Shown piece after piece: positions 15,127-25,673 of a DNA stretch of 40,742 nucleotides (the stretch's first letter is position 1; each line of letters opens with the position of its first letter). A program made the position numbers and the translations under genes. The notes beneath the pieces are model-generated. The model saw only the letters and a list, made by a program, of their open reading frames with translations. It made no database searches and was not told where the DNA came from. Source of the stretch: Lysobacterales bacterium (lineage in GTDB: Bacteria > Pseudomonadota > Gammaproteobacteria > Xanthomonadales > Marinicellaceae); the NCBI GenBank assembly GCA_026988115.1, contig JALSLV010000098.1:1-40742 (forward strand), written 5' to 3'.

Positions 15127-18060
15127 ATGCCAATAAAAGAAAACAAAATAGAAAATGATTTCATCAAAAAACTCCAAGAGCTAAAATACAAATATCGTCC
15201 TAATATTCGTGACAGAAGCTCTTTAGAGCAAAATTTTCGTCAAAAGTTCCAAGAACTAAATAGAGTAAACTTAACAGATAATGAGTTTACTCGACTATTA
15301 GAAGAAATCATTAGCCCCAACGTTTTTAACTCCTCTAAGCTACTACGAGAGACAAACACTTTTGAAAGAGAAGATGGTACACCTTTACACTATACGCTTG
15401 TCAATATCAAAGATTGGTGTAAAAACTCTTTTGAGGTGATAAATCAACTGCGTATCAATACAAAAGATAGTTTTCATAGATATGATGTGATTTTGCTTAT
15501 CAATGGTCTGCCATTGGTGCAAATTGAGCTTAAGACTTTGCAGATAAGCCCAAGACGAGCGATGCAACAGATTATTGATTATAAAAATGATGCAGGTAAT
15601 GGCTATGCCAATACACTGCTTAGTTTTATGCAACTTTTTATTGTCTCAAATCAGAGCAATACCTACTACTTTGCCAACAACGACAACAAACATTTTGCTT
15701 TTGATGCTGATGAGAGATTCCTACCTATCTATCAATTTGCAGATACTAAAAATAAAAAAATTATAAATCTTGATGATTTTAGTGATGCTTTTTTAGCTAA
15801 ATGTAAACTTGCTGAAACCATCAACAGATATATGGTACTAGTCCAAAGTGAGCAAAAACTTATGATGATGCGACCTTATCAAATCTATGCCGTTGAAGCG
15901 ATAGTAGAGTGCATAGAGGACAACAGAGGCAATGGATACATTTGGCACACAACAGGAAGTGGAAAAACGCTCACTTCTTTTAAAGCCTCTACACTCTTAA
16001 AAGACAACGATACCATTAAAAAAGTGCTTTTTGTAGTCGATAGAAAAGACCTTGATAGACAAACAAGAGAAGAGTTTAACCGATTTCAAGAGAATTGTGT
16101 AGAGGAGAATACCAACACCCAAACCCTTGTAGATAGACTGCTCTCAACAGATTATGCCGACAAAGTAATAGTAACAACTATTCAAAAGCTAGGACTTGCC
16201 CTTGATGGAACAAACAGAAACAATTATAAAGAGGCTTTAGCACCACTTAGCCAAGAACGAATTGTGTTTATTTTCGACGAGTGTCACAGAAGTCAATTTG
16301 GTAAAAACAACAAAGCCATCAAAGATTTTTTTCCTAACTCTCAACTCTTTGGCTTTACAGGTACGCCCATCTTTGAAGAGAATGCCAAGAGTTTTATGAT
16401 AGAAGATGATACAGCCACACTCAAAACCACCAAAGATATATTTGAAAAAGAGCTACACAACTACACCATTACCCACGCCATTGATGATGGAAATGTCTTG
16501 CGTTTTCATATAGACTATTTTAAACCAGAGAGTAAAGAGGCACAAAAAGCGACTATCTCAAAAAAGGCAGTAGCCAAAGCCATACTAGAAAAGCACAACA
16601 AAACCACAGCCGATAAAAAATTCAATGCCGTTTTTGCTACCTCTAGCATCAACGATGCCATAGAGTATTTTAGAGTTTTTAAAGAGCTTGAACACGATTT
16701 AAATATCGCTTGTGTCTTCTCTCCACCTGCTGAGGGCAACAAAGATGTAGCCCAACTTCAAGAGGATTTACCAACAGAGAAAGAGGATAACAAAGTAGAG
16801 CCAAACCTTAAAAAAGAGGCGTTAAAAGAGATTATAAACGATTATAATAAACAATTTAATACTAACCATACGCTAAATAACTTTGATGTTTACTACCAAG
16901 ATGTGCAAACTCGTATTAAAAATCAAAAATACCCAAATAGCGATTTGCCACATAAAGAGAAAATAGACATCACCATAGTGGTCGATATGCTCTTAACAGG
17001 TTTTGACTCTAAGTTTTTAAATACCCTCTATGTAGATAAAAATCTACAATACCACGGACTTATTCAAGCTTTTTCAAGAACCAACAGAGTCTTAAACGAC
17101 GCCAAACCCTACGGTAATATCTTAGATTTTCGCTCACAACAAAATGCAGTAGATGAGGCAATAGCACTCTTTTCTGGTGAAGATATAGGCAAACCAAAAG
17201 AGATATGGCTTGTTGATTCTGCTCCTAAAACCATAGAGAAGTTTAAAGAGGCAACAAAAAAACTTGAAACTTTTATGAGCAATTACGGCTTAGAGAACAA
17301 CCCAAGCGAAGTAGCCAATCTAAAAGGCGATGAGGCAAGAGCGGAGTTTATCAATACTTTTAAAGAGATACAACGCCTAAAAACCCAACTAGACCAATAC
17401 ACAGAGCTAAAAAATGAAGAGCTAGAAGCCATAGAAGAGGCGATGCCAAATGATACGCTAAGAGCCTTTAAATCTATGTATCTTGAAACGGCCAAACAGC
17501 TACAAAACAAACGAGACAAAGGCGATGAGGTAAGTGATGAAGTAGAGCAACTTGATTTTGAATTTGTCTTATTTGCTTCGGCTCTTATAGATTATGACTA
17601 CATCATGAACCTTGTGAGTCAGTACGCAAGTGCTGAGCCTAAAAAGCAAGAGAGTAGAAAAGAGCAACTCATAAACCTACTTAAATCAAACGCCAATCTG
17701 CTTGACGAAAAAGAGGATATAATCGATTATATCAACTCACTAGAAGTAGGCAAAGCTTCAGATGAGCAGAGCATCAAAAAAGGGTATGAGGCATTTAGAA
17801 GTGCTAAAAATACCAAGGAGCTCAATGCCATAGCTGAAAAAAATAGCCTTAAACCCGTTGAACTTCAAAAGTTTGTAGATGCCATTTTAGACAGATATAT
17901 ATTTGACGGTGAAAAACTAACCGACCTGTTAGCTCCTTTAAATCTTGGATGGAAACAAAGGCGGCTTAAAGAGCTAGAGCTAATGGAAGAGCTTAGCCCA
18001 CTGCTTAGAAAGATGGCAAAAGGCAAAGAGATTTCAGGCTTGGAGGTGTATGATGACTAA
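15127..18060 (+). CDS. hsdR: Type I restriction enzyme R subunit HsdR
   Basis: HsdR is the motor and nuclease subunit of a type I restriction-modification complex; it translocates DNA using ATP and cuts unmodified DNA. The 977-residue protein has the N-terminal PD-(D/E)xK nuclease (D120, then ELK at 134-136). A superfamily 2 helicase follows, with Walker A TTGSGKT (275-281), DECH (384-387) and FGFTGTP motif III, and a second RecA lobe with DMLLTGFDSKFLNTLYVDK and QAFSRTNR. The helical C-terminus ends LSPLLRKMAKGKEISG. Arginine is mostly AGA and isoleucine often ATA, unlike the flanking gammaproteobacterial genes and reminiscent of Campylobacterota, which suggests transfer. The stop overlaps the hsdS start. 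Confidence 0.96.
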   Translation: MPIKENKIENDFIKKLQELKYKYRPNIRDRSSLEQNFRQKFQELNRVNLTDNEFTRLLEEIISPNVFNSSKLLRETNTFEREDGTPLHYTLVNIKDWCKNSFEVINQLRINTKDSFHRYDVILLINGLPLVQIELKTLQISPRRAMQQIIDYKNDAGNGYANTLLSFMQLFIVSNQSNTYYFANNDNKHFAFDADERFLPIYQFADTKNKKIINLDDFSDAFLAKCKLAETINRYMVLVQSEQKLMMMRPYQIYAVEAIVECIEDNRGNGYIWHTTGSGKTLTSFKASTLLKDNDTIKKVLFVVDRKDLDRQTREEFNRFQENCVEENTNTQTLVDRLLSTDYADKVIVTTIQKLGLALDGTNRNNYKEALAPLSQERIVFIFDECHRSQFGKNNKAIKDFFPNSQLFGFTGTPIFEENAKSFMIEDDTATLKTTKDIFEKELHNYTITHAIDDGNVLRFHIDYFKPESKEAQKATISKKAVAKAILEKHNKTTADKKFNAVFATSSINDAIEYFRVFKELEHDLNIACVFSPPAEGNKDVAQLQEDLPTEKEDNKVEPNLKKEALKEIINDYNKQFNTNHTLNNFDVYYQDVQTRIKNQKYPNSDLPHKEKIDITIVVDMLLTGFDSKFLNTLYVDKNLQYHGLIQAFSRTNRVLNDAKPYGNILDFRSQQNAVDEAIALFSGEDIGKPKEIWLVDSAPKTIEKFKEATKKLETFMSNYGLENNPSEVANLKGDEARAEFINTFKEIQRLKTQLDQYTELKNEELEAIEEAMPNDTLRAFKSMYLETAKQLQNKRDKGDEVSDEVEQLDFEFVLFASALIDYDYIMNLVSQYASAEPKKQESRKEQLINLLKSNANLLDEKEDIIDYINSLEVGKASDEQSIKKGYEAFRSAKNTKELNAIAEKNSLKPVELQKFVDAILDRYIFDGEKLTDLLAPLNLGWKQRRLKELELMEELSPLLRKMAKGKEISGLEVYDD

Positions 18061-19258
18061 ATTAGTACCAAAGCTTAGATTTAAGGAGTTTAGTGGGGAG
18101 TGGGAGGAAGACATACTCGGTAAAGTTGTTAAATTTTTAGATGGAAAAAGAAAACCTATTAAAGAATCAGATAGAGCTAGTATGCAAGGAGAATATCCAT
18201 ATTATGGTGCTTCAGGAATTATTGATTATGTTAATGATTATATATTTGATGAAGATTTGATTTTACTTGGAGAAGATGGTGAAAATATTGTTTCAAGAAA
18301 TTTACCACTTGTTTTTAAAGTTTCAGGCAAATCATGGGTTAATAATCATGCACATGTATTAAAACCATTGAAAGAGCATAAGTTAGATTTTTTAGTACAA
18401 TATTTAGAAAATTTGTCTTATGCTAAATATAATTCTGGTGGGGCTCAACCGAAGTTAAATCAGGCTGTATGCAAAACTATTCCATTAATAATACCTAAAC
18501 CAAAAGAACAACAAAAAATCGCCTCGACTTTTCTCTCACTTGACAATCTCATAGAGGCAACCAAGCAAAAAGTAGAGGCTTTGCAAAAGCATAAAAAGGG
18601 CTTGATGCAACAACTCTTCCCCTCTGATGGCGAAAAAGTGCCAAAGCTTAGATTTAAGGAGTTTAGTGGGGAGTGGGAGGAGAAGAAGTTGGGGGATATA
18701 TTTACCATATTTCAAGGACATGCTTTCTCAAGCCATGATAGTAGAGATACTGGAACAAGATGGGTTAAAATTGCAGATGTCGGCATTCAAAAGATGGATA
18801 CAAAGTCAGCATCATATCTTCCTATAGAATATAAAAATAAATATGAAAAATATTTGCTAAAGAATGGTGACTATGTTATAGCTTTAACTCGTCCAATATT
18901 AAATAAAAAATTAAAAATTGCCCCCATCAATAAGACCTATCATAATTCACTTTTAAATCAAAGAGTTGGAAAAATAATTACATCTCAAAATAAAACTTTT
19001 GTATATTATTTTCTACAGACACAAGAATTAATAAATAGTATTGAAAGAAATATTGCAGGTAACGAGCCACCTAATTTATCAATGAAACAAATTAATAAAA
19101 TAAAAATATATATCCCAACCCCAATAGAACAACAAAAAATCGCCTCCACCCTCTCATCACTTGACAATCTCATAGAGGCAACCAAGCAAAAAGTAGAGGC
19201 TTTGCAAAAGCATAAAAAGGGTTTAATGCAACAGATGTTTGTGAGTGGGGAGGGTTGA
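18050..19258 (+). CDS. hsdS: Type I restriction-modification specificity subunit HsdS
   Basis: HsdS chooses the bipartite DNA target for methylation and cutting. The 402-residue protein is two tandem halves. Each half begins with the same block (KLRFKEFSGEWEE, residues about 8-20 and 201-213). A target recognition domain follows, then the same helical conserved region beginning EQQKIAS (about 153-190 and 360-397). The two recognition domains differ, so the site should be asymmetric. At DNA level 41 bases are identical between 18068-18108 and 18641-18681, and the conserved-region copies are nearly identical. This gives ready substrate for recombination. Two ATGs (18050, 18053) overlap the end of hsdR. 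Confidence 0.95.
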   Translation: MMTKLVPKLRFKEFSGEWEEDILGKVVKFLDGKRKPIKESDRASMQGEYPYYGASGIIDYVNDYIFDEDLILLGEDGENIVSRNLPLVFKVSGKSWVNNHAHVLKPLKEHKLDFLVQYLENLSYAKYNSGGAQPKLNQAVCKTIPLIIPKPKEQQKIASTFLSLDNLIEATKQKVEALQKHKKGLMQQLFPSDGEKVPKLRFKEFSGEWEEKKLGDIFTIFQGHAFSSHDSRDTGTRWVKIADVGIQKMDTKSASYLPIEYKNKYEKYLLKNGDYVIALTRPILNKKLKIAPINKTYHNSLLNQRVGKIITSQNKTFVYYFLQTQELINSIERNIAGNEPPNLSMKQINKIKIYIPTPIEQQKIASTLSSLDNLIEATKQKVEALQKHKKGLMQQMFVSGEG

Positions 19259-19262
19259 GATG
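19127..19262 (+). repeat. 136-bp direct repeat, left copy (end of hsdS to prrC start)
   Basis: This copy covers the last 44 codons of hsdS, its stop, one base and the ATG of prrC. It matches 20405-20540 at 131 of 136 positions by direct comparison. A related but shorter copy lies within hsdS at 18506-18614. The repeat ends exactly on the start codon of the following gene. Confidence 0.95.
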
Positions 19263-20399
19263 GCAACGCAGAAAAAACTACATACCTACAAAACACTAAA
19301 AGGATTGGTTACAAGATTAAGAGATGATTTAAACAATAAAGATTTTGTTTTACTATATGCCTATAATGGAACTGGTAAAACTCGTATATCTATGGAGTTT
19401 AAAGAAAAAGGCAAAAGAAAAGGAAATAGAGACACGCTCTATTTTAATGCTTTTACAGAAGATTTATTTCATTGGAATAATGACCTAGAAAACGATACAG
19501 AACGCCATTTAATTATTAATCAAGAGTCAAAATTTTTTGATGGCTTGAAAGAGTTGGAGCTAGAAGACAGAATCTTTAATTATTTACAAAGATATTCAGA
19601 TTTTGAATTTAATATTGATTATGATGATTGGAAAATAACCTTTTCTAAAAATGTTATAAAGAGAGTAAGAGGTGGAGATGATAGAACTGAAAGAGTTGAT
19701 AATATTAAGATTTCAAGAGGAGAAGAAAATACCTTTATATGGTGTATTTTTCTTGCTATCTGTGAAGTAACACTTGATGATTCAGAATCTTATAATTGGG
19801 TGAAATATTTTTATATAGATGACCCTATCTCTTCATTAGATGATAATAGAGCTATTGCCATAGCAAGTGACCTTGCTAAAATACTCAAAAATACTAAAAA
19901 TACAAAAAGAATTAAAACTATTATATCATCTCATCATGGGCTATTTTTTAATGTAATGGTAAATGAACTCAAACAGCATAGCCATAAAAAATATTTTTTA
20001 CACAGAGATAAAGAGAGTGACATATATACACTTCAAGCTACAGATGAAACACCATTTTTTCATCATGTAGCCACACTTAGTGAACTTCAACAAGCCGTGC
20101 AATCAAATAAAATCTATACACATCATTTTAATATGTTGCGAAGTGTTTTAGAAAAGACTGCAACCTTTTTTGGTTCAGATGATTTTTCTTTTTGCATTCA
20201 TGGCATAGAAGATGAAGCTTTGTATGCAAGAGCTTTAAATCTGTTGAGTCATGGGAAGCATTCAGTATATGAACCAAGAGAGATGGTTGAAGATAATAAA
20301 GAGCTATTCAAAGAGATTTTATCAAATTTTCGTAGTGCCTATAAGTTTGATTTACCAAATATATTTGCAGAACAAACAACACAAGAGGGACAATCATGA
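19260..20399 (+). CDS. prrC: PrrC-family anticodon nuclease (AAA/ABC ATPase)
   Basis: PrrC is a latent ribonuclease that cuts a tRNA anticodon loop when phage interferes with its partner type I enzyme, so it guards the restriction system. The 379-residue protein (E. coli PrrC is 396) has Walker A YNGTGKT (35-41), the family block YFNAFTEDLFHWNNDL, and the ABC-like signature ISRGEENTFIW (151-161). It also has Walker B YFYIDDPISSLDDN (183-196) and the H-loop IISSHH. The C-terminal nuclease residues R294-x3-E298 (MLRSVLEKT) and H331 (LLSH) align with R320, E324 and H356 of E. coli PrrC as I recall them. ATG 19260 follows the hsdS stop by one base, and the GTG at 19245 lies inside hsdS. Position inside the hsd locus supports the call. 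Confidence 0.88.
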   Translation: MATQKKLHTYKTLKGLVTRLRDDLNNKDFVLLYAYNGTGKTRISMEFKEKGKRKGNRDTLYFNAFTEDLFHWNNDLENDTERHLIINQESKFFDGLKELELEDRIFNYLQRYSDFEFNIDYDDWKITFSKNVIKRVRGGDDRTERVDNIKISRGEENTFIWCIFLAICEVTLDDSESYNWVKYFYIDDPISSLDDNRAIAIASDLAKILKNTKNTKRIKTIISSHHGLFFNVMVNELKQHSHKKYFLHRDKESDIYTLQATDETPFFHHVATLSELQQAVQSNKIYTHHFNMLRSVLEKTATFFGSDDFSFCIHGIEDEALYARALNLLSHGKHSVYEPREMVEDNKELFKEILSNFRSAYKFDLPNIFAEQTTQEGQS

Positions 20400-20536
20400 G
20401 CGAAGAACAACAAAAAATCGCCTCGACCCTCTCATCACTTGACAATCTCATAGAGGCAACTAAGCAAAAAGTAGAGGCTTTACAAAAGCACAAAAAGGGT
20501 TTGATGCAACAGATGTTTGTGAGTGGGGAGGGTTGA
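20396..20536 (+). CDS. Orphan HsdS distal conserved region (46 codons)
   Basis: This short frame starts with an ATG overlapping the prrC stop (ATGA), preceded by GAGGGA at good spacing. It encodes MSEEQQKIASTL followed by the same helical conserved region that ends HsdS, finishing QQMFVSGEG. It is a duplicated hsdS tail left by the event that placed prrC here. hsdS itself is intact, so this is not its broken end. If translated it would be a 46-residue amphipathic helix like the HsdS segment that contacts HsdM and the other conserved region, so it might bind the complex; that is inference. Its first codons (ATGAGCGAA) equal those of hsdM. Confidence 0.6.
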   Translation: MSEEQQKIASTLSSLDNLIEATKQKVEALQKHKKGLMQQMFVSGEG

Positions 20537-20540
20537 GATG
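20405..20540 (+). repeat. 136-bp direct repeat, right copy (orphan tail to rhuM start)
   Basis: This is the second copy of the hsdS-tail repeat, with five substitutions against 19127-19262, and it ends on the ATG of rhuM. The distance between the copies is 1278 bp, which is prrC and nothing more. Homologous exchange between them would delete prrC and join hsdS directly to rhuM. Confidence 0.95.
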
Positions 20541-21539
20541 CAAGATAGAAAAGATATCATCATCTACACAGACCAAAATCAAAATATCAAGTTAGATGTC
20601 ATCATCAAAGGTGAGACTCTGTGGGCTACCCAAAAGCAGATGGCTGAGCTTTTTGAAGTGAGAGTCCCTGCTATATCGAAACATCTGAAAAATATCTTTG
20701 AGAGTGGAGAGCTTGATGAAGATTCAGTTGTTTCCATTTTGGAAATAACTGCCAATGATGGTAAAAAGTATAAAACAAGTCTCTACAATCTTGATGCAAT
20801 CATAGCCGTAGGATACAGAGTCAATAGCCTTAAAGCGACAAAGTTTAGAATTTGGGCTACAGGTATATTAAAAGAGTTTATCATTAAGGGGTTTGTGCTT
20901 GATGATGAGAGATTAAAACAGAGTAAAAACTTTGGCAAGGACTATTTTGATGAGCTTCTTGAGAGAGTTCGCTCAATTCGAGCAAGTGAGAGGCGAATAT
21001 ATCAAAAGATTACAGATATTTTTAGAGAGTGTAGCATAGACTATGATGCAGACTCTCAAGTAACAAAAGATTTTTATGCAACAGTGCAAAACAAATTTCA
21101 CTATGCCATCACAGGTGAAACAGCCGCAGAGATAATCTACAACAGAGCAGATAAAAACAAGCCTTATATGGGACTTACTACTTGGAAACATTCACCAAAT
21201 GGCAGAGTGCTAAAAAGCGATACACACATAGCCAAAAACTATCTTCTGCCAAAAGAGATAAAAAGACTGGAGCGAACGGTATCGAGCTATTTTGATTATA
21301 TTGAAAATCAAATAGAGATACGAAAAGAGCAAGAGTCACCTTTGACAATGCAAGAGCTAAGTAGCAGTATAGATAAATTTCTAAGCTTTAACGACTTTAA
21401 AGTTTTGCAAGATAAGGGTAAAGCCTCAAACAAGATGGCACTAAACAAGGCAGATAAAGAGTATGAAGAGTTTAATAAATTTCAAAAAATAGAGTCAGAT
21501 TTTGATAAATTGGTAAAAAAGACAAAAGGGCAACAATGA
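20538..21539 (+). CDS. RhuM family protein
   Basis: RhuM proteins are named after a gene on Salmonella pathogenicity island 3 and are common inside type I restriction loci, but their function is unknown. The 333-residue product has the family N-terminus (IIIYTDQNQNIKLDVIIKGETLWATQKQMAELF), a predicted DNA-binding-like helical segment (VPAISKHLKNIFESGEL), and the conserved LYNLDAIIAVGYRVNSLKAT. The region QNKFHYAITGETAAEIIYNR continues through GLTTWK, and the C-terminus is coiled and lysine-rich. The frame is open from a GTG at 20523, inside the hsdS-tail repeat. ATG 20538 is favoured because it follows the orphan-tail stop in the same way prrC follows hsdS. It overlaps hsdM by four bases. Confidence 0.88.
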   Translation: MQDRKDIIIYTDQNQNIKLDVIIKGETLWATQKQMAELFEVRVPAISKHLKNIFESGELDEDSVVSILEITANDGKKYKTSLYNLDAIIAVGYRVNSLKATKFRIWATGILKEFIIKGFVLDDERLKQSKNFGKDYFDELLERVRSIRASERRIYQKITDIFRECSIDYDADSQVTKDFYATVQNKFHYAITGETAAEIIYNRADKNKPYMGLTTWKHSPNGRVLKSDTHIAKNYLLPKEIKRLERTVSSYFDYIENQIEIRKEQESPLTMQELSSSIDKFLSFNDFKVLQDKGKASNKMALNKADKEYEEFNKFQKIESDFDKLVKKTKGQQ

Positions 21540-23143
21540 GCGAAACAAAACAAAAAGAGTTAGGTAAAATCCTCTGGGCGATAGCCGATGATTTACGAGG
21601 GGCGATGAATGCCGATGATTTTAGAGACTATATGCTCTCATTTCTGTTTTTAAGATACCTTAGTGACAACTATGAAGAGGCAGTCAAAAAAGAGTTGGGG
21701 TCTGATTATCCAACAGTAGATGAGAGTGAAAAGCGAACACCTTTAGAGGTGTGGTATGAGCAAAATAAGCAAGATGTAGCATTTTTTGAGGACTTGATGC
21801 GTAAAAAAGTCCATTATGTCATCAAGCCAAATTTTTTATGGAATAGTATCGCAGAACTGGCACGGACACAAAGCCAAGAGCTTCACAAAACTTTAGAAGA
21901 GGCATTTAAATATATAGAAAACGAGTCATTCTCAACAGCTTTTGATGGACTCTTTTCAGAGATAAACCTAAACTCTGAAAAGCTAGGAAAAAACTACAGC
22001 CAAAGAAATGAAAAACTTTGTAAAATCATCACTAAAATAGCCGAGGGCATAGCAGAGTTTTCAAATGATTCTGATGTGCTAGGCGATGCCTATGAGTACC
22101 TCATAGGGCAGTTTGCAGCAGGTGGAGGGAAAAAAGCAGGAGAGTTTTACACCCCGCAACAAGCCTCTACAATACTCTCTCGTATTGTCTCACTCGATAG
22201 TCAAGACCCAAGTATGGGTAAAAAGAAAAAGTTAAATTCTGTTTTTGACTTTGCTTGCGGTTCAGGCTCTCTGCTTTTAAATGTCCGAAAACAGATGGGA
22301 AAAGATGGCATAGGCAAAATTTACGGACAAGAGAAAAACATCACCACCTTTAACCTTGCACGAATGAATATGCTACTTCATGGGGTAAAAGATAATGAGT
22401 TTGAGATACACCACGGCGATAGTCTAAGCAATGATTGGGATATATTAGCAGAGGAGAATCCCTCTAAAAAGATACACTTTGATGCTATTGTGGCAAATCC
22501 TCCTTTCTCTTTGCGTTGGGAGCCAAACGATGAAATAGCCAAAGATTTTAGATTTAAAAACCACGGATTAGCCCCTATAAGTGCAGCCGATTTTGCTTTT
22601 TTACTGCATGGATTTCACTTTTTGAATAAAGAGGGGACAATGGCTATTATCTTACCTCATGGAGTGCTATTTCGCGGTGGAGCAGAATCTCGTATAAGAA
22701 CCAAACTACTTCAAGATGGACACATAGATACTGTGATAGGACTGCCACCTAAGCTTTTTTTCTCTACAGGCATACCTGTTTGTATCTTGGTACTTAAAAA
22801 GTGTAAAAAGAGTGATGATGTGCTATTTATCAATGCAAGTGAGCATTTTGAAAAAGGAAAACGACAAAATCACCTTACAGAGGATAACATAGCAAAAATT
22901 GTCGATACCTATCAGTATAGAAAAGAGGAGGAACGCTACTCTCGCCGTGTAAGCTTGGAAGAGATAGAGAAAAATGATTTTAATCTAAATATTTCACGAT
23001 ATGTTAGTACGGCAAAGCCTGAGCCTATTATTGACTTGGGTGAGGTTAATGGCGATATAAAACAAGCGACGCAAGATATTGAAAAATACATGAAGGAGCA
23101 TAATGCATATTTGGAAGAGTTGGGTGTTGAGTTGTTGGGTTAA
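21536..23143 (+). CDS. hsdM: Type I restriction-modification methyltransferase HsdM
   Basis: HsdM transfers a methyl group from S-adenosylmethionine to the N6 of adenine at sites chosen by HsdS. The 535-residue protein has the N-terminal HsdM domain (LGKILWAIADDLRGAMNADD, DYMLSFLFLRYLSDNYE), then GEFYTPQQAS (about 202-211). Motif I is FDFACGSGSLLLN (237-249) and motif IV is NPPF (321-324). The C-terminal helical tail would pair with HsdS. It is the last gene of the locus, which is unusual because hsdM normally comes before hsdS. The codon style matches hsdR. An attC-like structure begins four bases after the stop codon. Confidence 0.96.
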   Translation: MSETKQKELGKILWAIADDLRGAMNADDFRDYMLSFLFLRYLSDNYEEAVKKELGSDYPTVDESEKRTPLEVWYEQNKQDVAFFEDLMRKKVHYVIKPNFLWNSIAELARTQSQELHKTLEEAFKYIENESFSTAFDGLFSEINLNSEKLGKNYSQRNEKLCKIITKIAEGIAEFSNDSDVLGDAYEYLIGQFAAGGGKKAGEFYTPQQASTILSRIVSLDSQDPSMGKKKKLNSVFDFACGSGSLLLNVRKQMGKDGIGKIYGQEKNITTFNLARMNMLLHGVKDNEFEIHHGDSLSNDWDILAEENPSKKIHFDAIVANPPFSLRWEPNDEIAKDFRFKNHGLAPISAADFAFLLHGFHFLNKEGTMAIILPHGVLFRGGAESRIRTKLLQDGHIDTVIGLPPKLFFSTGIPVCILVLKKCKKSDDVLFINASEHFEKGKRQNHLTEDNIAKIVDTYQYRKEEERYSRRVSLEEIEKNDFNLNISRYVSTAKPEPIIDLGEVNGDIKQATQDIEKYMKEHNAYLEELGVELLG

Positions 23144-23146
23144 AAC

Positions 23147-23273
23147 GATAACAAATCGTTGCACCTGATTTTTTCTATATCGAATTTGGGTATTATGAAA
23201 CTTTAGCAACCACTTAAGCATATACCTCATTTATATAGATATATTCAATTGTGCAGTTTAATAATTGTTAGGC
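23147..23273 (+). other. attC-like inverted structure downstream of hsdM
   Basis: Just past the hsdM stop lies ATAACAAATCGTTGCACCTG, which resembles the left boxes of an integron attC site. At 23250-23273 lies TGTGCAG followed by ATTGTTAGGC, resembling the right boxes with a GTTAGGC core. TAACAAAT pairs with ATTGTTA and GCAC pairs with GTGC. The next ORF begins 14 bases later, as in gene cassettes. No integrase is in the window and the left core is imperfect, so this is a suggestion only. Confidence 0.35.
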
Positions 23274-23286
23274 ACACAAGATAATC

Positions 23287-23526
23287 ATGCATAGAACTAT
23301 TTCCCTGTCTGAGTATGTAAAAAAGCGTAATGGCGTAGCCCTTGGCGCACCTGGGTCAATGAGTAATATGTTTAAACGTTCACTAGGAGCGAGTTCATTT
23401 TATTTGTTTTGGCAATATTGGAACCCTATATGGGGATATTATCTTTCTCGTAAAATAATGAAACCATTGAGTCAATTGTCAAATGATGAAATTCAAGAAG
23501 ACCAAGTGACTGCCAATGGGATTTAA
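23287..23526 (+). CDS. Hypothetical protein, probably truncated
   Basis: A 79-residue frame starts MHRTISLSEYVKKRNGVALG and continues through SLGASSFYLFWQYWNPIWGYYLSRKIMKPL. This segment is well formed, aromatic and amphipathic, and resembles the N-terminus of longer small membrane proteins that I associate with gene cassettes. That association is from memory and unverified. After about residue 62 the sequence turns polar (NDEIQEDQVTANGI) and stops with no membrane helices, so the gene is probably broken or recombined. Function unknown. The 190 bases between it and the toxin gene hold nothing that I can identify. Confidence 0.45.
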   Translation: MHRTISLSEYVKKRNGVALGAPGSMSNMFKRSLGASSFYLFWQYWNPIWGYYLSRKIMKPLSQLSNDEIQEDQVTANGI

Positions 23527-23717
23527 AAGGCATGTGGTACTTGAAATATTATACGAAATTCAATATAATTATGTGAAAATACATATAATGAGATTAACGA
23601 GGTATATGCATAACTAGGGTCGGATGGGATGGAGATGTACATTGAGCTAGGTTTTTCTATAAAAATTGAACCAATAGTTGTTCTACAGGTTGATTTTTAT
23701 AGGGAAAGATAGCCAAT

Positions 23718-23734
23718 GTGGGATACATTCCCAC
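23718..23734 (+). repeat. Short hairpin, copy 1 (before the toxin gene)
   Basis: GTGGGA and TCCCAC flank a five-base loop. A near-identical hairpin lies at 24474-24489 behind the antitoxin gene, so the pair brackets the toxin-antitoxin module. It overlaps a possible GTG start for the toxin. Confidence 0.55.
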
Positions 23735-23762
23735 CGATTTTAGTTATGTATATACCTCTAAC

Positions 23763-24077
23763 GTGGATAAAAAGGATATATGTTTTCTAGGCAGTTCAAA
23801 AGATGACATAGTTTCTTTTCCTCATGATGCGAGACGAGAGTCTGGTTATCAGTTAGGGCTTCTTCAAGCTGGAGAAGAACCTGATGATTGGAAGCCTTTT
23901 CCTAGTATCGGTGCAGGTGTTAAAGAAATCCGTATTCACAAAGATAACGAATATAGAATCATTTACGTTACTAAATTTGAAGAATGTATTTACATTTTAC
24001 ATGCCTTTGTGAAGAAACAGCAAAAGACAAGAAAGAGTGATATTAATCTAGCTAAACAGCGCTATAAAGATATTTAA
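23763..24077 (+). CDS. HigB-like toxin (RelE superfamily, phage Gp49-like)
   Basis: Toxins of this group are ribosome-dependent mRNA interferases. The product reads MDKKDICFLGSSKDDIVSFP and contains ARRESGYQLGLLQAGEEPDDWKPFPSIGAGVKEIRIH, YRIIYVTKFEECIYILHAFVKK and a terminal KSDINLAKQRYKDI. All are hallmarks of the family. The frame is open from a GTG at 23718, but that codon sits in a repeated hairpin and would add 15 residues not usual for the family. I prefer the GTG at 23763, giving 104 residues, although no ribosome site is clear there. It precedes its antitoxin by 18 bases, the reverse of classic TA order but normal for HigBA. Whether toxicity is retained is unknown. Confidence 0.85.
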   Translation: MDKKDICFLGSSKDDIVSFPHDARRESGYQLGLLQAGEEPDDWKPFPSIGAGVKEIRIHKDNEYRIIYVTKFEECIYILHAFVKKQQKTRKSDINLAKQRYKDI

Positions 24078-24095
24078 TAAATAGCAGGAGTTATT

Positions 24096-24380
24096 ATGAA
24101 AAAACAAGTATTAAAATCAGATGAAAATATTTTTGAAGCCTTAGAGGTTGCTAACTCTGGCTATGAAAAAATACGTCTAGACCTTATACTAGTTATTCGA
24201 AAATGGTTTAAAAATTCTGGACTTACTCAACAGGATGCTGCAAAAGCACTTTGTTGCACACAACCGCAAATTAGTGCTGTTTTAAATACAAAGTACGAAG
24301 AATTTACAATAGATCGTTTAATAAAAATGGTGTCTTGTATAGGAAGAAACGTTGAAATTAAGGTGTTGGAAGCGGCTTAA
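24096..24380 (+). CDS. HigA-like antitoxin (XRE/HTH)
   Basis: This 94-residue protein is the antitoxin partner of the preceding HigB-like gene. It has a helix-turn-helix of the Cro/C1 type at about residues 43-68 (LTQQDAAKALCCTQPQISAVL) and the C-terminal DRLIKMVSCIGRNVEIKV typical of this antitoxin group. A good ribosome site (CAGGAG) precedes the ATG. It should neutralise the toxin and repress the operon. Confidence 0.88.
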   Translation: MKKQVLKSDENIFEALEVANSGYEKIRLDLILVIRKWFKNSGLTQQDAAKALCCTQPQISAVLNTKYEEFTIDRLIKMVSCIGRNVEIKVLEAA

Positions 24381-24404
24381 AACTTAGTGCCATGCCGCAT
24401 CAAA

Positions 24405-24445
24405 GGGATCGGAGGAATTGATTTCATCTTGTCGGTTTTAATCGG
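24405..24445 (+). repeat. Dispersed repeat, copy 1
   Basis: This sequence resembles 25809-25852: a GG(A/G)TCG(G/A)AGGA..TTGATTT start and a TTGTCGGTTTTAA end. The end contains a short self-complementary segment (ATCGGTTAAAACCGAC in the other copy). Both copies lie in intergenic DNA, one on each side of the acidic orphan gene. Confidence 0.55.
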
Positions 24446-24473
24446 TTTTTTTCAACTTTGATTTTAGTTTTGA

Positions 24474-24489
24474 GTGGGATAAATCCCAC
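24474..24489 (+). repeat. Short hairpin, copy 2 (behind the antitoxin gene)
   Basis: A perfect GTGGGA-TAAA-TCCCAC hairpin, the partner of 23718-23734. It has no T-run, so it is not a classic terminator. Confidence 0.55.
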
Positions 24490-24666
24490 TATCCATTATG
24501 TGTTACTGTAGATAATTTAAAAAAGATTGGGATGAAACCTACTATTCAGTGTGGCTTACTTAAATATTTATTTAAAGGCAAGTTGAGCTTTAATTTGAAT
24601 AATTAAATTAGCAAATAAATAATAGTTCTTTTTGAATGTGCGTCTATTGTATTCCGTAAACTTAGA

Positions 24667-24709
24667 TTCTGTTATATTGGTGCATCACAAACCACAGCAT
24701 CAATTATTA
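24667..24709 (+). repeat. 43-bp promoter-like repeat, copy B (upstream of acidic orphan gene)
   Basis: This is the partner of 14958-15000, about 34 of 43 identical without gaps. The extended -10 TG-T-TATATT is kept (24670-24678). It lies 32 bases before the ATG of the acidic orphan gene, so as a promoter it would give a short leader. Confidence 0.55.
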
Positions 24710-24740
24710 GCAAAACCTAAGATAAAATAAGAGTAAAAAA

Positions 24741-25673
24741 ATGGAATACTGGATTGATTTAAAAATAAAACCAAAAAATAAATACTTTCAACCAATTAAT
24801 AGATTTGTTGAATCTGCCATCAATGGCGAGGTTGATAGTATTGAAGAAATATTTTCAGAAATAAGTGATGTGGCGATAGAAAAATATATAAAGATTAAAA
24901 CGCATGAATATTACGGCTCTTATATTAATGATTTACAGGGTTGTCCAACCAACAAAAAATCAAATAAAATAAGCATTGATATTACAACAGGTGGCATGGG
25001 TCCAGAATTTTCTGTTGCTTTAGTCGATTTACTTGGTGAATACTGTGAAGAAATTAGTGCTTATGTGACTCACGATGAAGATTTTGGACACATACCTGTT
25101 AAGTTAACTTATGCACAAGGAAAAGTGTATGAAGACGGCAAAGAAATCGCATTAAGAACATTTGAAGAAGAAGAGATAGATTCTTGGGCACAAGAGCCAA
25201 TAGTTGACAAAGATATTCTAAAACCCATACAGGATATTTGTAAAAAAGCCACAGCAGATACAAGTTTTTTAGAATTAACAAAAATTTATATCGAGCTTTA
25301 TACTCCAATCACAACAGTGGCAAGAAAATATGATTTACTTACAGCCCTATTAGATGGTGATGATAAAGAGGAGTATTTAGAATACATTGATGGGGTTTTG
25401 AATTTGAGTTATTACAAAGAAAAACACCCTGTCTTTACGTTTTTTAAAAATAAAATGCATGAAAATTTGCAAGAAATGTCTAAGACTGAATACTTAGGAT
25501 CTCTATTTAACGAGTACAAAAAAACGCTTGTCACATTTTATGTTTTTTGTGATGCAGTCAATGATGAGACAGAAGGAACTTTTGAAGAACTTTTTGAAGA
25601 AGTTGATGATCAAGATGACTTTGATGTAGTCTATGAAATGACTGCTTTGTTTGATTTGGGCGAAGAAGAGTAA
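24741..25673 (+). CDS. Hypothetical acidic protein, function unknown
   Basis: I do not recognise this 310-residue protein. It has no signal peptide or membrane segment and should be cytoplasmic. It is strongly acidic, especially at the C-terminus (EELFEEVDDQDDFDVVYEM) and around residue 140-150 (FEEEEIDSW). The middle (residues about 75-95) has ISIDITTGGMGPEFSVALVD, a plausible beta-strand and glycine turn. The C-terminal half looks helical. The ATG follows an AAGAGTAAAAAA run. It stands alone beside the restriction and toxin-antitoxin genes and shares the hsdR-type promoter repeat, so a link to defence, immunity or DNA mimicry is possible but unsupported by any motif. Confidence 0.8.
   Translation: MEYWIDLKIKPKNKYFQPINRFVESAINGEVDSIEEIFSEISDVAIEKYIKIKTHEYYGSYINDLQGCPTNKKSNKISIDITTGGMGPEFSVALVDLLGEYCEEISAYVTHDEDFGHIPVKLTYAQGKVYEDGKEIALRTFEEEEIDSWAQEPIVDKDILKPIQDICKKATADTSFLELTKIYIELYTPITTVARKYDLLTALLDGDDKEEYLEYIDGVLNLSYYKEKHPVFTFFKNKMHENLQEMSKTEYLGSLFNEYKKTLVTFYVFCDAVNDETEGTFEELFEEVDDQDDFDVVYEMTALFDLGEEE

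Follow-up and report, generated by a model that had tools for sequence, protein, structure and literature searches.

The window, a stretch of 40,742 nucleotides from a Lysobacterales bacterium (assembly GCA_026988115.1, contig JALSLV010000098.1), contains a type I restriction-modification (R-M) operon in which hsdR-hsdS-prrC-rhuM-hsdM follow each other on the plus strand. Between the two cargo genes, prrC and rhuM, lies a second copy of the 3' end of hsdS. This copy, together with the codons upstream of it, is probably a recombination joint formed by a cross between an hsdS-prrC-hsdM and an hsdS-rhuM-hsdM operon, in which the start of hsdM recombined with the tail of hsdS. Copies of the hsdS tail were found behind other cargo genes in six of 80 other complete slots, the slot being the interval between hsdS and hsdM; six of 80 is the fair measure of recurrence since the window was picked for its repeat. 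In four of the eight joints identified, the DNA to the left of the second tail runs into the start of hsdM in relatives, and in two or three more it is hsdM-like.

The two tail copies, A and B, are alike at 131 of 136 bases. The mismatches, at 19147, 19183, 19204, 19213 and 19225, all occupy third codon positions of hsdS and all five are silent; the tail peptide of 43 residues is identical in both copies. A script recovered the coordinates and the number of mismatches given in a preliminary description of this DNA, and each copy does end on the start codon of the gene that follows it, copy A on the prrC ATG (19260-19262) and copy B on the rhuM ATG (20538-20540). The interval between the copies had been described as exactly one gene; prrC lies there, but so do a few extra bases, which are part of a third open reading frame (ORF), 20396-20536. 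The edges of the repeat are sharp, since identity is just 25% over the 60 nucleotides to its left and 35% over the 60 nucleotides to its right. A repeat search paired 19126-19262 with 20404-20540 at 96% and found a third copy at 79% in the middle of hsdS (18505-18641); a central copy of the tail region is usual in HsdS proteins with two target recognition domains (TRDs). The assembly consists of 121 contigs, of which the window is one, and this might raise the suspicion of an assembly artefact at the repeat. Such an artefact is extremely improbable, as the copies differ at five sites and the same architecture occurs in other assemblies.

The third ORF, called here the bridge ORF, has a start codon that shares bases with the stop of prrC (ATGA), the upstream frame being open over 384 codons, and its stop is followed by one base and then the rhuM ATG. 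It reads MSEEQQKIASTL...SGEG, that is, M-S-E followed by the 43 residues of the HsdS tail. Close to the rhuM ATG it contains GGGGAGGG, which is purine-rich and, by eye, a plausible ribosome-binding sequence. The continuous frame from ATGA to the hsdS stop and the ribosome-binding-like sequence mean that both cargo genes can stay translated, and from its sequence the bridge itself may be translated. Copy B holds neither a second hsdS nor a silent TRD cassette; it matches Methylase_S at profile positions 140-166 of 168, below the cut-off. The features of the operon are the following.

15127-18060, plus strand: hsdR, type I restriction subunit, 977 residues (Pfam HSDR_N and EcoR124_C; PADLOC REase_I; NCBIfam hsdR)
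18050-19258, plus strand: hsdS, specificity subunit with two TRDs, 402 residues (Pfam Methylase_S in two stretches; PADLOC Specificity_I)
18505-18641, plus strand: central conserved region of hsdS, 79% like tail copy A (repeat search)
19127-19262, plus strand: tail copy A, hsdS 3' end and prrC start codon, 136 bp with five mismatches to copy B
19260-20399, plus strand: prrC, gene of a PrrC-family anticodon nuclease, 379 residues (PADLOC PrrC; Pfam AAA_13)
20396-20536, plus strand: bridge ORF, 46 codons, hsdM-like first codons (MSEEQQ) continuing in frame into the hsdS tail
20405-20540, plus strand: tail copy B, hsdS 3' end and rhuM start codon, with GGGGAGGG near the rhuM ATG
20538-21539, plus strand: rhuM, second cargo gene, 333 residues (Pfam Virulence_RhuM, 342 bits, 2.4e-102; PADLOC PDC-S05)
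21536-23143, plus strand: hsdM, 535 residues, start overlapping the rhuM stop (ATGA) (Pfam N6_Mtase and HsdM_N; NCBIfam hsdM)

Related operons, referred to by locus number, were gathered from GTDB species genomes on the basis of PrrC similarity (25 loci) and, on the basis of HsdM similarity, from 200 genomes of host relatives, 397 genomes of the phylum of a Sulfurovaceae metagenome-assembled genome (MAG), 369 genomes of the host class and 395 genomes of the Pedobacter phylum. Further loci came from PrrC searches in the host class, from searches with tail DNA and from plasmids (3344 records matched, of which 16 of the 40 listed were inspected). The matches fetched were those with the strongest HsdM or PrrC similarity, not all matches. 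No pair among 95 hsdM genes compared shares 97% identity over 700 bases. A profile built from 103 hsdS tails was run on 104 oriented loci including the window; L141, L149, L150 and L177 were fetched after its construction. Complete slots, with a full hsdS, a recognized hsdM start and the gap between them, were present in 81 of the 104 loci, and extra tail matches of at least 8 bits within a slot were considered as joints.

Extra tail matches occurred in nine of the 81 slots. Two were dropped, that of L029, which proved to be its own terminal hsdS tail, and that of L143, which reached 10 bits, leaving seven loci with eight joints: the window (76 bits), L128, L129, L141, L149 (two), L150 and L177, with scores from 13 to 76 bits. 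Outside the slots, matches to short ORFs that were not taken as pieces of hsdS peak at 11.5 bits in 1.4 Mb; matches set aside as hsdS pieces were those in L009, L025, L130, L175, L176 (two) and one of three in L135, the last assigned by look only. In all eight joints the initial ATG overlaps the stop codon of the preceding ORF, and hsdM itself starts on an ATG that overlaps the upstream stop in 32 of the 81 slots. The 31-residue joint ORFs begin with MTEQTQKLDHLKTHKKGLM... (L141), MTAQTKKLATLKTHKKGLM... (L149), MTAQTQKLATLKTHKKGLM... (L150) and MTKQTLQFTVLKTHKKGLM... (L128).

In six of the eight joints the bridge ORF is open in frame to the hsdS stop, which, together with the identical 43 residues, might suggest that the bridge is a selected small protein, such as a free HsdS helix that would bind HsdM or PrrC and tune the system. 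If the tail had been copied in place and then changed without selection, five silent changes out of five would have a chance of about 0.001. Silent changes are, however, equally expected between two hsdS genes that diverged under selection before they were joined. Moreover, two of the eight joints have decayed: in the second of L149 the frame closes after five codons, and in L177 the sequence diverges from the tail after LKTHK. Bridge start and length vary among the joints. A selected function of the bridge is accordingly improbable.

The gene order at L149 (7680-10495) is hsdS, a PIN-domain pair, a joint, a zeta-toxin-like pair, a decayed joint, a PDDEXK transposase-family gene and hsdM; with two joints in series it looks like an array that grew twice. 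In L129 (3235-3531) a Fic gene is followed by a joint-like ORF of 98 codons that terminates in an hsdS tail, and its start is unlike HsdM. In L161 (8500-8680) a truncated hsdR continues in frame into an hsdS tail while the rest of hsdS is missing; this destructive fusion was not counted as a joint. What follows it can be aligned to the zeta-toxin-like portions of L149 and L150.

The parent forms of joints were found within one related group, in which the hsdM genes are 84 to 95% identical in DNA. Both parents were identified for the first L149 joint and the L150 joint. The small ORF that precedes these joints continues into a true hsdM in L156, and L156 aligns with L149 and L150 across the ATG with 92.5% identity over 226 positions (BLAST); an ungapped 60-nucleotide comparison yields only 53-55% because of a one-base shift. 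On the downstream side, a full hsdS tail leads into the zeta-toxin-like gene in L151 and L177. For the second L149 joint and the L177 joint the search covered the upstream side and identified L155 and L151, respectively, as parents.

These parents bear on the possibility that the bridge is the remnant of a tandem hsdS, i.e., that a former hsdS1-prrC-hsdS2-rhuM-hsdM operon lost everything between the start and the tail of hsdS2 in frame. The bridge does end as hsdS and in frame, and duplicated hsdS genes have been reported for many type I systems (PMC7394358). Yet the upstream side in L149, L150 and L177 continues into hsdM in relatives, none of the 81 complete slots contains two full hsdS genes, and the HsdS N-terminus of the window, MMTKLVPKLRF, the one HsdS used in the comparison, does not resemble the bridge. 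A tandem origin is thus very improbable.

Outside the related group, too, the left edge resembles an hsdM start in two or three joints. HsdM proteins of these operons start with MTEQNQKQMG, MTEQDQKQLG, MSEEQQQELG and similar sequences. Starts were scored with a position table derived from 66 distinct HsdM starts of the same loci, with the hsdM of the window included, and compared with 621 other ORF starts. None of the latter equalled the joint starts of L141 and L177, whereas three equalled that of L150, six that of the window (score 9.93, a short similarity), six that of the second L149 joint, which contains an unread position, nine that of the first L149 joint, 29 that of L128 and 132 that of L129. 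The window joint agrees with the hsdM start of L110, a locus from the phylum of the Sulfurovaceae MAG, at 19 of the first 21 bases, with two differences; bases 9 to 29 of the joint agree with hsdS.

The first 24 nucleotides of hsdM resemble the hsdS tail of their own operon. The best in-frame fit averages 13.54 of 24 for hsdM and 11.79 for other ORF starts (p 4e-19, 81 vs 531); within a narrower range of positions, outside which the window register falls, the values are 13.07 and 11.60. Tail position 16 is the commonest best fit (16.4 of 81 with ties split; 6.1 in controls scaled to 81), followed by positions -3 (11.4; controls 3.1), 15 (8.5; 3.4) and -1 (8.2; 4.3). The ATG lies at tail position 16 in six joints (L141, both of L149, L150, L177 and L128).

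Several observations weigh against a cross of hsdM with hsdS. Position 16 is commonest in the controls as well, partly because the tail has ATC there. Exact shared words of at least 10 bases occur in 3 of 81 hsdM starts and 8 of 531 controls; this rarity indicates that similarity and not long identity marks the joint site. The second L149 joint (14 bits) and the L177 joint (13 bits) score near chance level and were taken as joints because of the ATGA overlap, the HsdM-like start and the upstream parents. L129 does not have an HsdM-like start and is unexplained, as are its first 80 or so residues, and L128 is weak. L149, L150 and L177 are related, so that the eight joints may represent four or five events. 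In the window, the register, with the ATG at tail position -2, is an unfavoured one (1.5 of 81 hsdM starts; controls 2.3) and needs an hsdM of the MSEEQQ type, as seen in L110 and nearly in L146 (MTEEQQK). The case for an hsdM origin of the first codons of the bridge is a short similarity, matched by about 1% of other ORF starts. The hsdM of the window shares only its first nine bases with the bridge, which implies that, if the bridge is a joint, its hsdM codons came from another operon. No pair of parents with high DNA identity was found among the collected loci for the window joint; at the protein level there are an hsdS-prrC-hsdM order in L009 (PrrC 76%) and a rhuM first behind hsdS in L018 (58%). 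That the window joint arose like the others is a reading from short similarity and by analogy.

According to the proposed pathway, two hsdR-hsdS-cargo-hsdM operons, one with prrC and the other with rhuM as cargo and presumably from different strains, would meet in one cell. Recombination would take place where the first codons of hsdM (MSEEQQ type) resemble the conserved stretch at the 3' end of hsdS (EQQK). The product would be hsdS, prrC, the hsdM start joined to the hsdS tail, rhuM and hsdM, with two effectors stacked behind one hsdS and the tail left behind as the 46-codon bridge ORF. Such a cross would account for the ATGA overlap and the hsdM-like codons. It would also account for the identity of the two tails at their 3' ends, each of them then being a genuine hsdS terminus with its own cargo behind it, and for the five silent differences, since the two hsdS genes would already have diverged. 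More generally, but more tentatively, the hsdS 3' end and the hsdM 5' end may form a natural pair of reusable cassette ends, since parts of the helix of HsdS (e.g., I-T-A-Q-T-Q-K) and of the N-terminus of HsdM (e.g., M-T-E-Q-N-Q-K) are alike in DNA; toxin-like genes could then be stacked without a dedicated recombinase, each unit bringing along a ribosome-binding site in its tail scar. With regard to an integron-type gene cassette, which would have an integrase gene and a recombination site at its end, a Pfam scan of the nine proteins encoded by 15127-25673 revealed no recombinase family; no search for attC sites was made.

The slots contain very varied genes, in numbers that are not natural frequencies because many loci were found through PrrC. 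A PrrC relative is present in 60 of the 81 slots, 47 of which are short slots lacking rhuM, and rhuM in 12, eight of which also contain prrC. The order prrC-rhuM occurs in the window, L015, L029, L065, L131 and L167, and the reverse order in L018 and L105; in L102, L104, L141 and L160 rhuM is accompanied by genes other than prrC. Pfam assigned the remaining cargo to Fic (L129, L141; in L064 named by eye), a zeta-toxin-like kinase, a PIN-domain gene and a PDDEXK transposase-family gene (L149), a Polbeta nucleotidyltransferase (L101), Schlafen AlbA_2 with a RecG-like C-terminus (L102), SIR2-like and HerA-like proteins (L160), YhcG (L140), Abi_2 (L110), DUF4917 (L105), DUF559 (L155), Bro-N (L128) and a UvrD-type helicase (L169). 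L104 showed a weak PHP match below the Pfam cut-off, and four of 20 slot proteins scanned had no Pfam family. Many of these cargo types are familiar as toxins or abortive-infection genes.

Such variety fits part of an earlier proposal that the region behind hsdS is an actively used modular slot in which the 136-bp copies act as homology arms, so that prrC can be removed and effectors added or swapped by homologous recombination. The copies are 96% alike and in frame, and a recombination between A and B carried out in silico removes 1278 bp, leaves the HsdS protein unaltered and places rhuM at the position of prrC, behind TGAG-ATG, as had been predicted. In other species rhuM (L018, L141) or prrC (L009 and many others) stands directly behind hsdS. 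A search for the alternative loci called for in the preliminary description yielded prrC without rhuM, rhuM without prrC, and both without a second tail. The second repeat itself had been expected to recur in related loci; it is absent from the other prrC-rhuM-hsdM loci, four of which have no room for a tail in between while L167 has no tail match, but tail copies do occur behind other cargo, in the six slots counted above. Four of the eight joints unite an hsdM start with an hsdS tail and stack genes, which does not correspond to an exchange between matched hsdS arms, and an arm exchange would not be expected to leave copy B with an hsdM-like left edge. Among the 200 related genomes, no deleted or swapped version of the locus was seen at the DNA level, a weak test because in none of these genomes is the locus present at high DNA identity. 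The use of the copies as exchange arms is therefore unlikely. Once formed, the direct repeat could nevertheless delete prrC by ordinary recombination; no sign of this was found in the collection, which, with a single genome for each species, is ill suited to show it.

Among the plasmids, L190 and L194 carry two genes between hsdR and hsdS in addition to prrC between hsdS and hsdM, i.e., two slots per operon. The two genes in the hsdR-hsdS gap of L194 are annotated as a TrlF family ATPase and an RNA-binding protein, and L195, with unannotated ORFs of matching size between hsdR and hsdS, probably has two slots too. On a Methylomonas plasmid (L180, 7631-9989) an IS3-family element interrupts prrC. 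The E. coli IncC plasmid L197 (1-9430) contains a decayed, fragmented hsdR-hsdS-prrC-hsdM operon annotated as hypothetical proteins only. A search of plasmids with a joint-like peptide matched 45 records, and no joint was present among the 18 inspected; L196 has an ordinary full hsdS before prrC. Searches of viral contigs with HsdM, PrrC and a degenerate joint pattern revealed no relatives. In E. coli, prrC gave a partial match in 42 of 5426 genomes and in none over 80% of the query. Five loci with another operon order (L133-L137) lacked a second tail in the slot, though so small a number does not allow a judgement. Behind the operon of L105 (13131-13501) a partial ORF resembles, by eye, the start of a class D beta-lactamase.

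The identity of prrC in the window is supported by a PADLOC PrrC match of 458.9 bits (2.9e-138) over residues 6-370 and by Pfam AAA_13 (43.3 bits against a cut-off of 36), as well as by its location in a type I operon in which hsdR, hsdS and hsdM are recognized by Pfam and hsdR and hsdM score above the NCBIfam cut-offs. In PrrC-type systems the R-M complex keeps the nuclease silent, and inhibition of the complex sets it free. The nuclease triad of the E. coli PrrC protein is Arg-x3-Glu ... His. By eye and without alignment, the translated window protein shows LRSVLEKT and LLSH, with a spacing about one residue off that of the triad. A comparison of PrrC and RhuM with solved structures produced no match. 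From their sequences, both genes may act as defence effectors. A gene pair resembling a toxin-antitoxin pair, Gp49-like (DUF891) and HTH_37 according to Pfam, lies about 0.6 kb downstream of hsdM (23718-24380).

The closest kin of the operon among the loci collected are L009 (HsdM 85%, PrrC 76%, order hsdS-prrC-hsdM) and L101/G488 (HsdM 82%, HsdR 79%). Both belong to the phylum of the Sulfurovaceae MAG whereas the host of the window is a member of the Lysobacterales, and the operon (15127-23143) was thus likely acquired by horizontal transfer, as judged from these protein similarities.

The genes of EcoprrI are arranged in the order M-S-prrC-R. There, as in the window, prrC is embedded in a type I R-M operon (PMC3874165, PMC12707154). 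The window differs by its R-S-prrC-rhuM-M order and its second hsdS tail. In phase-variable type I loci, the conserved regions of hsdS serve as recombination sites. Such loci, with duplicated hsdS genes, have been described (PMC7394358, PMC6265443); they shuffle TRDs, whereas the second copy in the window lacks a TRD and it is the cargo that changes. The slot was initially thought to be undescribed, but diverse ORFs occupying the hsdS-hsdM gap (mlo) and the hsdR-hsdS gap (rlo) are in print for Campylobacter (from 2005, cited in PMC5183652), as are defence genes embedded in other defence operons, including type I hsd operons (Payne et al. 2024, cited in PMC12255303, PMC11411939, PMC12629846). 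The published examples include TgvAB and DarTG2, both in type I operons, as well as PrrC in type I loci on Pseudomonas islands (among PMC3874165, PMC12707154, PMC12255303, PMC11411939, PMC12629846 and PMC5183652), and the RptR paper regards the hsdS-hsdR gap as a potential recombination hotspot (PMC12255303). The mlo and rlo loci resemble the window in the varied cargo of the slot, and the accessible part of PMC5183652 mentions neither hsdS-tail copies nor hsdM/hsdS joints. The embedded defence genes resemble it in their location in hsd operons; recombination scars or partner sequences do not appear in the accessible parts of those reports (PMC12255303, PMC11411939, PMC12629846). No description of hsdS-tail scars or hsdM/hsdS joints was found in the open-access literature, a scope that leaves aside most subscription papers and all bioRxiv preprints.

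That defence genes reside inside type I R-M operons is known; the route by which they enter and accumulate is known much less well. The joints are countable scars that show one route of accumulation and its direction, and with them this route becomes testable in databases and at the bench. They may also aid annotation: where 30 to 46 codons of hsdS tail stand by themselves between two genes, they may represent a joint, and the genes on either side may be stacked defence effectors. Judging from comparable scars in other bacteria, such joints may be one means by which these operons acquire additional defence genes.

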